Part shown: in pieces, positions 6,927 to 11,697 of the stretch
Position numbering within the stretch: position 1 is the stretch's first letter
Layout of the letters: every line of letters starts with the position of its first letter
Assembly (NCBI GenBank): GCA_027459325.1
Contig: DAIDIO010000002.1
Span: 65,951-103,323 of the forward strand
Origin: Candidatus Saccharimonadota bacterium
GTDB lineage: Bacteria; Patescibacteriota; Saccharimonadia; Saccharimonadales; UBA4665
Length of the DNA stretch: 37,373 nt
Reading direction: 5' to 3'
Notes under the pieces: model-generated
Told to the model about the DNA's origin: nothing
The model's input: only the letters and a program-made list of their open reading frames with translations
Database searches by the model: none
Position numbers and translations under genes: made by a program

Positions 6927-7913
6927 TTAGTTCACGGTTACGGTTGTCGGACTGGTATTAAGAAGAGTTTTACCGCCCAGCGAACTATTTACCGGCGGGG
7001 TTGTTACGTTTAGCGGTAAGACTGAGGAGCCCGTTCCGCTGGACGTTGTACCAGATGTGCTTGTGCTGGAGCTAGAAGGCGCAGATGTAGGACTGGAAGT
7101 TGACGATCCTGAATAGGTGGAGCTGGTACTGGGATAAGATGAGCTACCACCTCCTCCGCCCATGCCTGGAGTAAGGCTAGTTGTTGAGGGAGTCGATGGG
7201 CCAAGATAGTATCCCGGAGTCGAATTAGCGCTTGAGCTAACTCCCCCATTATTCGTTGCTTTGCTAGTGATACTCGATGAGGGTTTATTGCTGGTTGAAG
7301 CTGTGGAGGTTTTGCTTGAGGGGGTGGAAGATTTAGGTTGGTTAGCGTTATTTTTAGACCGGCTTACATTATTAGATTTACTTGAGTTGTTAGTCGGGCT
7401 GCTAGGCTGGTTGTGGTGAATGCTTGAGTTAGTGCTAAGTAAGACAACCCCAAAAACCAGACAGCCGAGTATTAAAAGTGGTTCAGTGGCTCTTAACGCT
7501 CTAAGTCTAAATTGCGGCCAGTCTACGAAAACTCCTTTCGACCACGAATATGACTTAGGCAGTGCTGAGTAAATATATCGCCAACCTTGCTTGGCTGACA
7601 GGCTTAGCCACGCTAGCGCAGTAAGAGTACCGGCTAATGTGGCTGACAAAAAGGACAGAATGGGCTTAGTCAAACGGTCTTTTATGGGAACTGGCTGAAT
7701 ATCCGGCATGCTGGCTAGTGGCGGTATGCGGGTGAATTGATCGCTGGCATAACCGGGCTGTAAAATACTCCGATGTTGCAGATAGTTTTCGTCTAGCCAG
7801 CCAATGCTATGCATTCTGACTTTTGAATCTCGTGTATCAAAACCATCGTTTGTACGAGGCTGGTTATCATCTCGCTGAATATCCCCGCGTACGTCGTTAT
7901 TCCTATACGCCAT
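6927..7913 (-). CDS. Two-helix membrane protein with long Ser/Thr-rich exported tail
   Basis: The 328-residue protein is not a recognised family. An acidic/basic N-terminal third (about 1-80) is followed by a helix at about 87-109, an intervening soluble stretch, and a second strong helix at about 146-163. The remaining 165 residues are nearly all Ser, Thr, Pro, Asn and Gly, including a GMGGGGG run. Such a tail is mucin-like and a candidate for O-glycosylation by the envelope enzymes at 1-3.7 kb; that link is inference. The ATG follows a GATAAT box by 6 nt. It is divergent from the redox operon. Possible roles are surface stalk or adhesin. Confidence 0.6.
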   Translation of the reverse strand: MAYRNNDVRGDIQRDDNQPRTNDGFDTRDSKVRMHSIGWLDENYLQHRSILQPGYASDQFTRIPPLASMPDIQPVPIKDRLTKPILSFLSATLAGTLTALAWLSLSAKQGWRYIYSALPKSYSWSKGVFVDWPQFRLRALRATEPLLILGCLVFGVVLLSTNSSIHHNQPSSPTNNSSKSNNVSRSKNNANQPKSSTPSSKTSTASTSNKPSSSITSKATNNGGVSSSANSTPGYYLGPSTPSTTSLTPGMGGGGGSSSYPSTSSTYSGSSTSSPTSAPSSSSTSTSGTTSSGTGSSVLPLNVTTPPVNSSLGGKTLLNTSPTTVTVN

Positions 7914-8050: not shown

Positions 8051-9064
8051 ATGAAACACTACGAAATTGAACACATGCGTGCCGAAAAAGGCATACTTTA
8101 CTTGAGTATCACACCCAAACATGAATGGGATAAGCTTAAGTTTTATGCCGGACAGTATGCGACTATAGGTTTTAGGTCTGATAACGGCCGGCGCTCTCCA
8201 ATGCGCTGTTTCTCTATTGTCAGCTCACCCTTAGACAACGACAGACTACAATTCGCCATCCGAATTCATGGCAGATTTACCCAGTCACTTAGTGAATTGC
8301 CAATAGGTACCGATATCTATGTGCAGGGTCCCTTCGGGGAGTTTGTCGTTGATAACAAACAAGATAGCAATCTGGTTTTCCTAGCCGGTGGCATCGGGAT
8401 AACTCCTATCGTGAGCATAATTCGGACGTTAAGCTGGCTTGGCAGCTCTATGCCGATGACGTTATTGCATGGTTACCGGACAGCCGATATTCCCTTTAAG
8501 AATGAACTGAAAACCTTAAAGCAAAAGAATTTAAGATTAAAAACCTATCACTTCGTTACCCAAGATCCGGTTCCGGCTGGCGAATTTAATGTTCTGTCAG
8601 GCATGATCCAAAAAGACCACATCCGCCAGGTTACCAGCGGCCGTTATGTCGGTAGTACTTATTTCGTTTGCGGGCCTAAGCCGTTTATGGATAAGATGTC
8701 TGAACTTCTCATAGACAATGGTGTTGATGAGGACCGCATTCTGACCGAATCGTTTGCTCAATCGTCCAAGATTTATGCTGGTAATGGAATGAGCGTCCAG
8801 AAGCTGACTTATGGCTTCGCTAGTGCATTGCTGGTGATTGGCATAATCGGTATATCCTTTATCGACTTAAGTAGATATGTGCCACGCATCGCCCATGCCA
8901 ATGCTGTGCCCGCTAATAGCATTAGTACTCCGCCCTCCCCGATAACCTCCTCCTCTGGCAATTCAGTTACCAGCGGAACTTCATCAAATTCTTCCAACTA
9001 TAGCACCCCGCCCCCTAGTAATTACACCCAGACTTATCAGGCGCCGGTAACTGCCGTCTCATAA
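8051..9064 (+). CDS. Ferredoxin-reductase-type FAD/NAD(P)H oxidoreductase with C-terminal membrane anchor and exported tail
   Basis: This 337-residue protein has a FAD domain with RCFS at 52-55 (the RxYS-type flavin motif), then an NAD(P) domain with GGIGITP at 113-119 and a late CGPKPFMDKM. There is no 2Fe-2S domain. A membrane helix follows at about 252-272, and the last 55 residues are Ser/Thr/Pro-rich and should lie outside. It would take electrons from cytosolic NAD(P)H and pass them to a membrane partner, most likely the heme protein encoded two genes downstream. The stop overlaps the next start (TAATG). The fusion of an FNR-like enzyme to an anchor and mucin-like tail is unusual. Confidence 0.82.
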   Translation: MKHYEIEHMRAEKGILYLSITPKHEWDKLKFYAGQYATIGFRSDNGRRSPMRCFSIVSSPLDNDRLQFAIRIHGRFTQSLSELPIGTDIYVQGPFGEFVVDNKQDSNLVFLAGGIGITPIVSIIRTLSWLGSSMPMTLLHGYRTADIPFKNELKTLKQKNLRLKTYHFVTQDPVPAGEFNVLSGMIQKDHIRQVTSGRYVGSTYFVCGPKPFMDKMSELLIDNGVDEDRILTESFAQSSKIYAGNGMSVQKLTYGFASALLVIGIIGISFIDLSRYVPRIAHANAVPANSISTPPSPITSSSGNSVTSGTSSNSSNYSTPPPSNYTQTYQAPVTAVS

Positions 9065-9981
9065 TGAAGAGGTACCAACAAAGCCGTACTGCATTAGGTT
9101 CTCAGGCTTTCCTGACAGTTATTGCGGATAGCGATGAAGTCGCCGATAAGCTATTTGTTAAGTCGTGGAATTTAATAGACGATTTTGAGAATCGATTCAG
9201 CCGGTTTCTAGATTCCAGTGAAACCTCCCGATTTAATGCCAGGGCCGGTAGTTTTGTTACCATTAGCCAGGAATTTAAAGATCTTTTGCTTGCCTGTAAG
9301 GCTTTAAGTGAGACAAGTGAGGGTTTGTTTAATCCATTTATTCTACCGAACTTACAAAGGCAAGGTTACGTTGGTTCTTGGCCTACACCCACTTCACATA
9401 AAGACTCAATTGACTACCGGGATCGGGCAAGTCTACCGGACATATCCAAACTAAAGATCGATAAAAATCAGGCCCGCATACCAATTAATAGTGCTATTGA
9501 TTTCGGCGGTATTGGTAAAGGTTATTTGCTTGATTTACTGGCCAAATATATGGACAAACATAGTCATAGCAGGTATTGGTTATCGCTTGGCGGTGATATT
9601 ATTTGCAGTGGGTTGGATATTGACGATCAACCTTGGATTGTTAAAGTTCAGCATGCTACAGAAGCTGATGAGTTAGTTGGTGTTATTAGTAATGAAGGTA
9701 AGAAAATAGCAATTGCTACTTCAGGGATAACCAAACGTAAGGGCAGCAACTGGCATCATATTATTGATCCCCGCAGCGGCCTGTCCGCCGATACCGATAT
9801 CTTAAGTGTCAGTGTTATTGCTACCGATGCCGCTTCGGCCGATGTATATGCCAAATGCTTGGTCATACTTGGTAGCCAGTCGGCCCTTGATTTTGTCCGT
9901 TCGCATCATTTAAAGACAGTCTTAATTCAAACGAGAGCTGGAAAGGTTTACCGCGTCGGAGGTAAAGTAAAAGTATTATGA
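9064..9981 (+). CDS. apbE: ApbE-family FAD:protein FMN transferase lacking a signal peptide
   Basis: The 305-residue protein has the ApbE landmarks: DFGGIGKG at 146-153, LGGD at 175-178, HIIDP at 232-236 and the Mg2+-binding TDAASAD at 254-260. The family splits FAD and attaches FMN to Ser/Thr of target proteins. Characterised ApbEs are usually exported lipoproteins; here the N-terminus (MKRYQQSRTALGSQ) has no hydrophobic signal and enters the catalytic fold directly, so it seems cytosolic. It overlaps the reductase gene upstream by 1 nt and the heme-protein gene downstream by 4 nt (ATGA). No FMN-bind domain protein is visible in the window, so its target is unknown. Confidence 0.86.
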   Translation: MKRYQQSRTALGSQAFLTVIADSDEVADKLFVKSWNLIDDFENRFSRFLDSSETSRFNARAGSFVTISQEFKDLLLACKALSETSEGLFNPFILPNLQRQGYVGSWPTPTSHKDSIDYRDRASLPDISKLKIDKNQARIPINSAIDFGGIGKGYLLDLLAKYMDKHSHSRYWLSLGGDIICSGLDIDDQPWIVKVQHATEADELVGVISNEGKKIAIATSGITKRKGSNWHHIIDPRSGLSADTDILSVSVIATDAASADVYAKCLVILGSQSALDFVRSHHLKTVLIQTRAGKVYRVGGKVKVL

Positions 9982-10607
9982 TATTAACTATACTGTCGGA
10001 CAGCACTGTTAATGTTGCTTTACAACGAGCCACGGCTTCATGGCCATGGTACGTTATCCGGGCGGCTGGTTTTACGGCCGCCGGACTGTTAATCTTACTG
10101 ATGTTATCAGGTATTGGCCAGGTCACCGGTTTGACTTATCGGTTTATAGAACCGATCAAGGCCTGGGCAATCCATAAAACCCTGGCTATTGCTATGTGCG
10201 TGAGCATTGCTATCCACGGCGGCTTCTTACTATTAGATCATTTCGTAAAGTTTTCTGTGCCAGCTATAACAATTCCTTTTGTTTCAAATTATAGTAATGG
10301 CACGAAGCTGTTAGGATTACCATTCGGTCCGATTGCCGTGGGGTTAGGGATAATTGCTAGTTATGGTATTGTCATTATTGTTCTAAGCTCGCTTAACTGG
10401 ATAGATACTAAAAAGGGCGCTTGGCGTAAACTTCATTATTTAAGCTATGGGGTGGCTATCTTAGTCTTTCTCCATGCTCTCTACGTAGGCAGTGATTTAA
10501 AGTATGGCGCCTTTCGGTCATTATGGATCCTGTTAGGATTTATAGTGCTGCTAGGCATAATTAGTCGTCTAGGTCGCCGGGGTAGCTTGAACTCATCAAG
10601 AGATTAA
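9978..10607 (+). CDS. Ferric-reductase-like transmembrane heme protein
   Basis: This 209-residue protein has about six membrane helices. Two histidine pairs, H66/H80 and H153/H166, are spaced 14 and 13 residues within hydrophobic helices, as expected for the bis-heme ferric reductase domain (PF01794; NOX, FRE and MsrQ relatives). It would carry electrons across the membrane from the FAD/NAD(P)H reductase encoded in the same operon. The start overlaps the apbE stop (ATGA), so expression is coupled. The acceptor outside is not evident: a metal, oxygen, a flavinylated protein or methionine-sulfoxide repair are all possible. Confidence 0.8.
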   Translation: MILTILSDSTVNVALQRATASWPWYVIRAAGFTAAGLLILLMLSGIGQVTGLTYRFIEPIKAWAIHKTLAIAMCVSIAIHGGFLLLDHFVKFSVPAITIPFVSNYSNGTKLLGLPFGPIAVGLGIIASYGIVIIVLSSLNWIDTKKGAWRKLHYLSYGVAILVFLHALYVGSDLKYGAFRSLWILLGFIVLLGIISRLGRRGSLNSSRD

Positions 10608-10734: not shown

Positions 10735-11697
10735 GTGGAACAGTTATTAATGTCGAAAGCAGCCAGTAAAGATAAACCCCGTTTTGCTCCAGTCATCATC
10801 CAAAAAAATAAAGAGCTGTTTATTGCCTATGTTTTTTTTCTAATCGTTTACGTAGCATTTTCGTTAATACCTCCGCCGCCGGCAATTACACTTCATCGCT
10901 ATCATTTGAGCGTGCTAGGATTAAGACTTATATCTGTTACCATTATCATTCTTTTAGCTCTTATTTGGGCTGCCGGTTTTTATGGCTTTGCTAAGCTAAG
11001 AGCTTATTCTAAAACCATAGAGAAACAGAAAGACGGACCCCCGATAACCAATATTAGTCGTGGCATATTTTTACTGGTTATGTGGCTGCCAGTGTCAGAA
11101 GTTGTGTCTGTGGTCCTTAAGTATATTGCTACACAGAATCCTGGTTTTATTGCCGCTTCTACCATTATTGATAATTATCTAAACCTGATAATCCCCCTGG
11201 CGGGGTTCATCGTCATGGGCATTGGAGCCAGAGGTTTAAGTTCTATGATACGGTCGAGACATAACTTTGCGGTAACGAACTTAATGTACTTGTTACTGGC
11301 ATTTGGGAGTGTTATCTATACGCATCTAGTGCTTGGCATTAGCGGTCGTGCCCAGATTTATCATATGTCTCTTTGGCTAGTGCTTCTCACCATAGTCGCT
11401 CCATACGTTTATATGTGGTTTATAGGTTCGGCTGCTGCTTATGAAATTTATAATTACCAACACAAGGTCAGCGGAGTGCTCTACCGGCGGAGCTGGAGAA
11501 TGTTGGCAATCGGTTGCGGTTGGTTGATTATTAGCTCAATGGTATTTCAGTATTTAACTACTTTGACACCCAGGTTAAGTCAGTTCTCTATTTACGGTTT
11601 ACTGGCGATTATTTATTCCCTGTTGGCTGTTTTATCGATAGGTTTCATTTTTATTGCATTGGGCGCCGCTCGTCTTCAAAAGTTGGAGGAAATTTAG
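10735..11697 (+). CDS. Eight-TM integral membrane protein of unknown function
   Basis: The 320-residue protein has about eight membrane helices from residue 28 to 312 and no recognised domain. Several histidines lie in or near helices (for example RYHLS near 56, IYTHLVLG near 198, IYHMSLW near 210), so cofactor or heme binding is conceivable, but the spacing fits no family I know. It lies 127 nt after the redox operon, with TATTAT/TATATA sequences about 35 nt before the start, so it probably has its own promoter. GTG at 10735 or ATG at 10750 are both possible starts. The stop overlaps the convergent Crp-like gene by 4 nt. Confidence 0.55.
   Translation: MEQLLMSKAASKDKPRFAPVIIQKNKELFIAYVFFLIVYVAFSLIPPPPAITLHRYHLSVLGLRLISVTIIILLALIWAAGFYGFAKLRAYSKTIEKQKDGPPITNISRGIFLLVMWLPVSEVVSVVLKYIATQNPGFIAASTIIDNYLNLIIPLAGFIVMGIGARGLSSMIRSRHNFAVTNLMYLLLAFGSVIYTHLVLGISGRAQIYHMSLWLVLLTIVAPYVYMWFIGSAAAYEIYNYQHKVSGVLYRRSWRMLAIGCGWLIISSMVFQYLTTLTPRLSQFSIYGLLAIIYSLLAVLSIGFIFIALGAARLQKLEEI

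Follow-up and report, generated by a model that had tools for sequence, protein, structure and literature searches.

In E. coli, the soluble flavin reductase Fre and the membrane protein MsrQ are separate proteins, one FNR-type reductase and one ferric-reductase-type protein (FRD), that pass electrons from NAD(P)H to flavin and on to hemes, with no ApbE dedicated to them. The pair is known as a NOX-like two-component system (PMC11031084). In SpNOX, FRD and dehydrogenase are fused in one chain; in both SpNOX and STEAP, hemes carry the electrons across the membrane. ApbE proteins come into play in the MsrQ-like (PF01794) flavinylation clusters of Meheust et al. 2021 (PMC8238504), in which apbE sits beside genes for an FRD and a PF00175 NAD-binding reductase and which typically, though not absolutely, include an FMN_bind gene. 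A two-subunit Nqr/Rnf-like flavinylated system (PMC11334425) is also linked to ApbE and drives outward electron transfer from NAD(P)H, by means of an NqrB/RnfD-like membrane domain and an exported FMN_bind protein. One has to keep in mind that the MsrQ-like clusters were collected by requiring exported components; the same survey, which kept only components with export signals, found ApbE-linked electron transfer strikingly under-represented in the candidate phyla radiation (PMC8238504). A literature search of limited scope found neither ApbE nor flavinylation treated in any paper on Saccharibacteria.

The operon studied here, which we call the cassette, lies in a 37,373-nucleotide stretch of a saccharibacterial genome (the window). 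Like the MsrQ-like clusters, it has a PF01794 gene beside apbE together with a NAD-binding reductase gene; it departs from them in that FMN_bind is absent, the ApbE is predicted to be cytosolic, the reductase is a separate protein with a TM anchor, and the metal site of the ApbE is altered. Its FNR and FRD are separate as in MsrQ and Fre, and unlike SpNOX, whereas the dedicated ApbE sets it apart from the E. coli pair; no MsrP-type acceptor was seen adjoining the window operon. By analogy with these systems, the cassette would move electrons from NAD(P)H across the membrane, as the Nqr/Rnf-like system does, but with a di-heme FRD instead of an NqrB/RnfD-like domain and an exported FMN_bind protein. 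A system of the Nqr/Rnf-like kind is also present in the window's genome, on contig C22.

Genes and Predicted Structures of the Cassette

An earlier reading, made from the sequence only, had proposed an operon of three genes overlapping by 1 and 4 nt, coding for an anchored reductase, an ApbE and a bis-heme membrane protein; coordinates and Pfam families agree exactly with this description (Table 1). The 1-nt overlap joins FNR and ApbE (TAATG), and the 4-nt overlap ApbE and FRD (ATGA). The FNR has the invariant residues R52, F54, S55, G114-I115-G116, T118-P119 and C207-G208; its AlphaFold model has a mean pLDDT of 79, with the reductase domain mostly above 90, and bears out the membrane helix and Ser/Thr-rich tail ascribed to it, with one predicted helix followed by a disordered tail that is presumably outside the cell. 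In the FRD, the four heme ligands H66, H80, H153 and H166 are invariant among 17 aligned relatives; the pairs H66/H80 and H153/H166 sit in helices 59-86 and 146-170, the arrangement of the NOX/FRD superfamily. AlphaFold places five membrane helices in this protein (pLDDT 87), and the nearest solved folds by Foldseek, all weak matches (best E-value 0.3), are SpNOX, STEAP and cytochrome b561.

The absence of an FMN_bind substrate from the operon was likewise correctly read: none is encoded nearby, and none of the window's three cassette proteins contains [ST]GA[ST]. Downstream, at 10735-11697 of the window, lies a gene for a multi-TM protein of 320 aa with no Pfam match, and upstream, at 6927-7913, one for a divergent TM protein whose tail is rich in Ser, Thr and Gly; neither has a counterpart at the other cassettes.

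Table 1. Features of the cassette, with positions counted from the first base of the window.
Feature	Positions	Strand	Basis or remark
FNR-type FAD/NAD(P)H reductase, 337 aa	8051..9064	+	Pfam FAD_binding_6 2e-9, NAD_binding_1 8e-13
Single membrane-spanning helix of FNR, residues 249-283	8795..8899	+	AlphaFold helix; hydropathy maximum 2.3
Disordered Ser/Thr-rich FNR tail, residues 284-337	8900..9061	+	pLDDT < 50 over 282-337; low-complexity in relatives
C-terminal peptide APVTAVS-COOH of FNR	9041..9061	+	Type 1 consensus P-x-[ST]-x-x-S
ApbE-family protein, predicted cytosolic, 305 aa	9064..9981	+	Pfam ApbE 1e-51; cassette-ApbE clade
Lys264 codon AAA of ApbE	9853..9855	+	Aligns with E. coli Thr284, metal site 1 ligand (alignment to 4xgw/2o18)
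FRD, di-heme ferric-reductase/MsrQ-type membrane protein, 209 aa, 5 TM helices	9978..10607	+	Pfam Ferric_reduct 2.7e-7
T50-G51-L52-T53, TM1-TM2 loop of FRD	10125..10136	+	Tested as flavinylation site, judged not obligatory

Conservation of the Cassette

The suggested comparison across Saccharibacteria revealed a conserved, lineage-restricted cassette: a scan of 84,980 prokaryotes, with one genome per species, yielded 49 loci that carry the label Saccharibacteria or unnamed bacterium, and one more under the label Parcubacteria group, so that the cassette has so far been seen almost only in Saccharibacteria. No FMN_bind protein was found at any cassette locus. The order FNR-ApbE-FRD, with genes mostly abutting or overlapping, holds in nearly all complete loci, the exceptions being split cases: in one genome, FNR and FRD are adjacent and the cassette-type ApbE is on another contig; in three others, FNR and ApbE are adjacent and the FRD is elsewhere. 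Loss of linkage has thus not meant loss of any of the three genes, a pattern that argues for one functional unit.

The loci fall into two types, of which type 1 is represented by the window cassette and type 2 by a second cassette of the same genome. Four traits differ together between them: the ApbE metal-site residue (predominantly K in type 1 and S in type 2), the end of the reductase tail (P-x-[ST]-x-x-S vs CxTxxSGx..C), the N-terminal extension of the FRD, and the fourth gene, which in most type 2 loci follows the FRD and encodes an exported Ig-like protein. The Cys pair at the type 2 tail end suggests a disulfide or a metal site.

A few loci depart from this layout. At L053 (741-2150), the tail of the reductase has a Peptidase_S74 (endosialidase chaperone) domain at its end in place of the usual C-terminal peptide. 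At L114-L116, the FRD is split from the cassette and convergent to an Nqr/Rnf-like ApbE operon, and the Thr of its TGxT loop is lost. Genome G112 has a lone cassette-type ApbE whose motifs are eroded (STTD, HHIINSE; L068 5274-6176), probably a decaying remnant; no FRD was found in that genome.

ApbE Loci and FMN_bind Proteins

The window's assembly (823 kb, 91.5% complete) holds three ApbE loci. The second, on the same contig as the window, is the paralogous type 2 cassette, with the same order FNR, ApbE, FRD (L008 4534-7968; G000 contig C20, about 12.5-16 kb) and, as fourth gene, an exported Ig-like (Big_14-like) protein. The third is the Nqr/Rnf-like operon (L009 2058-4825, contig C22), which codes for an ISGAT-bearing FMN_bind protein, an ApbE of its own, and a fusion of an NqrB/RnfD-like membrane domain with an FNR. 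Within this operon, the FMN_bind protein looks exported and the ApbE cytosolic. TatC was not found in this genome nor in G030, which is 100% complete.

The lack of an FMN_bind substrate is thus a property of the cassette but not of the genome, which encodes one such protein on another contig. An exported FMN_bind protein encoded elsewhere and co-occurring with the operon would speak against a non-canonical target, and only half of this was found: the protein exists, but its own ApbE is encoded next to it, and across genomes its occurrence does not follow that of the cassette.

To count FMN_bind proteins across the order, we replaced the Pfam FMN_bind profile, which missed many FMN_bind-like proteins beside the other ApbEs, with one built from 20 FMN_bind-like proteins adjoining these ApbEs; matches rose from 36 to 52 of the 149 genomes. 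At E 0.001, Pfam FMN_bind fails to detect about one in three of the genomes that possess such a protein. Judging by the FMN_bind proteins of type II/III loci, flavinylation sites in Saccharibacteria appear relaxed ([SAG]G[AS][ST]), and the upstream Asp is usually absent. Sixty of the 149 genomes encode an ApbE, and 15 have the cassette or a cassette-type ApbE. With the lineage profile, FMN_bind is missing from 8 of these 15 genomes vs 1 of the 45 other ApbE genomes (Fisher exact p = 2e-5, a value to be taken only as a guide because the genomes are related). Six of the eight (G072, G117, G132, G138, G148, G041, G055, and G124) are at least 95% complete; the single other genome is G096, whose ApbE starts 31 bases from a contig end. 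From these counts, the cassette very probably works without FMN_bind, a result that favours the reading of the operon as an unusual system for transmembrane electron transfer, with an ApbE that lacks an FMN_bind partner.

ApbE of the Cassette

The PDB relatives of the window ApbE are FAD:protein FMN transferases (E about 1e-20), and both fold and Pfam profile place it in the family. Its catalytic residues S220, H232 and D260 are present; in the 48 cassette ApbEs, the active-site Ser, His and Asp are kept in 47, 48 and 48 sequences, respectively. The discrepancy lies in the metal site. T284 of E. coli ApbE is a ligand of metal site 1, and it was the metal ligands that proved critical for FMN transferase activity (PMC4767422). 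This position is K264 in the window ApbE; it is K in 15, S in 31, G in 1 and T in 1 of the cassette ApbEs, the 28 other ApbEs sampled in the order all have T. The lysine might take the place of the metal, or it might signal that FMN transfer has been lost; the change of ligand may impair this transfer in the window protein, which we thus class as an ApbE-family protein rather than a proven FMN transferase. In a maximum-likelihood tree, the cassette ApbEs form one clade (48 rows, SH-aLRT 94), separate from the ApbEs of the three FMN_bind-linked groups.

The missing export signal, which the sequence-only reading took as a peculiarity of this ApbE, is real, as the N-terminus is not clearly hydrophobic; it is not distinguishing, however, since the 28 other ApbEs have no clear signal either (one type II ApbE is borderline). 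As the ApbEs of all groups share this feature, it reads as a lineage trait of the order.

Candidate Flavinylation Sites

The string SVTSGTSS in the reductase tail had been likened, faintly, to a flavinylation site. This likeness is not borne out, as the string has no conserved position: SG[AT][ST]-like strings occur in 5 of 50 distinct tails, at unrelated places, and comparable text recurs in other linkers of low complexity, nearly identical in the one of the genome's FMN_bind protein. What is conserved is the very end of the tail. While the rest of the tail is of low complexity and varies freely, 46 of the 50 end in one of the two peptides, the type 1 form in 19 and the type 2 form in 27; composition-preserving shuffles gave at most 5 and at most 1, respectively.

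A genome-wide pattern search for D-x-x-[ST]-G-A-[ST] did not point to a target: it gave 4 DNA matches vs 5 for the reversed-pattern control, as expected by chance. The sole match in a plausible gene, DVKSGAT, a textbook flavinylation motif, is carried by a small pilin-like membrane protein (L084; contig C11, about 55.7 kb), and the motif count is not above chance.

The TGxT loop of the FRD, on the predicted cytosolic side and beside the first heme ligand, was attractive because ApbE and loop would both be cytosolic; in the FRD of the genome's second cassette, it reads TGAT. Among the 18 FRDs first aligned, TGAT occurs in only 2 and the third position is variable. Over 52 FRDs, any residue may occupy that position, and 8 of them, each from a lineage that retains the cassette ApbE, have A, I or V in place of the final Thr/Ser, which dismisses the loop as an obligatory site.

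Proposed Mechanism and Alternatives

We propose, with a probability of about 0.5, that the cassette is a two-component electron exporter of the NOX/MsrQ-Fre kind whose own cytosolic ApbE serves the FNR/FRD pair, most likely by flavinylating one of the two. The FNR domain, held at the cytosolic face by its own helix, would take electrons from NAD(P)H onto FAD and hand them to the FRD, whose two bis-His hemes would carry them across the membrane to an outside acceptor; the topology is assigned from helix prediction and charge pattern only. ApbE would serve these proteins and not an FMN_bind protein, most likely attaching FMN at a non-canonical site on FNR or FRD. The exporter model is supported by gene order, protein families, heme and flavin ligands, the ApbE clade, the absence of FMN_bind and the co-retention of unlinked genes. 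Cytosolic ApbEs with cytosolic targets are known from Klebsiella (PMC12052999). Three observations count against flavinylation of the cassette: no conserved [ST]GA[ST]-like motif was found in FNR or FRD among aligned relatives; T53 of the FRD, the best candidate site, is lost in several lineages that keep the ApbE; and the metal-ligating Thr of the ApbE is replaced, which may impair FMN transfer. The weak Foldseek E-values also count against the model. A more specific version, in which a lineage-specific ApbE subfamily with Lys for the metal-1 ligand would load FMN covalently onto a new type of site in the cytosol-facing part of a NOX-like pair, without FMN_bind, is tentative.

The cassette ApbE might also transfer no FMN at all, and be instead a diverged subunit that binds or hydrolyses FAD, storing flavin or supplying it to FNR/FRD. 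The Lys in the window's type, at a ligand position critical for transferase activity (PMC4767422), and the lack of a recognisable target in the cassette favour such a role; the near-universal catalytic Ser/His/Asp, the Ser of the sister type, which could still ligate a metal, and the Thr kept in one cassette ApbE make it the less likely reading. That the target is the conserved C-terminal peptide of the exported reductase tail, with FMN as a tethered shuttle, is improbable. The peptides do persist while the rest of the tail drifts, and the last four type 1 residues, [ST]-x-[VAS]-S, loosely recall [ST]GA[ST]; yet almost all type 1 ends lack the Gly, no Ser/Thr is conserved at the acceptor position of type 2 peptides, and the ApbE seems cytosolic while the tail seems extracytosolic. 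Even less credible is an ordinary MsrQ-like cluster with a dispersed substrate, the cassette ApbE flavinylating an FMN_bind protein encoded elsewhere: the usual presence of FMN_bind in such clusters (PMC8238504) and the ISGAT-bearing protein of this genome would suit it, but that protein's adjacent ApbE and the eight cassette genomes with no detectable FMN_bind largely refute it.

Significance

The cassette is real, conserved and lineage-restricted, and its ApbE, whose reaction we infer, is a target orphan. Of 149 genomes of the order, 60 encode an ApbE, and export signals are all but absent from the 76 ApbE proteins examined; the export-signal filter of the earlier survey (PMC8238504) may thus have hidden the saccharibacterial ApbEs. 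With the cassette, these reduced bacteria would have a simple path from NAD(P)H to the outside; as a compact system, it also lends itself to the search for a new target of ApbE or a novel function of the ApbE fold.
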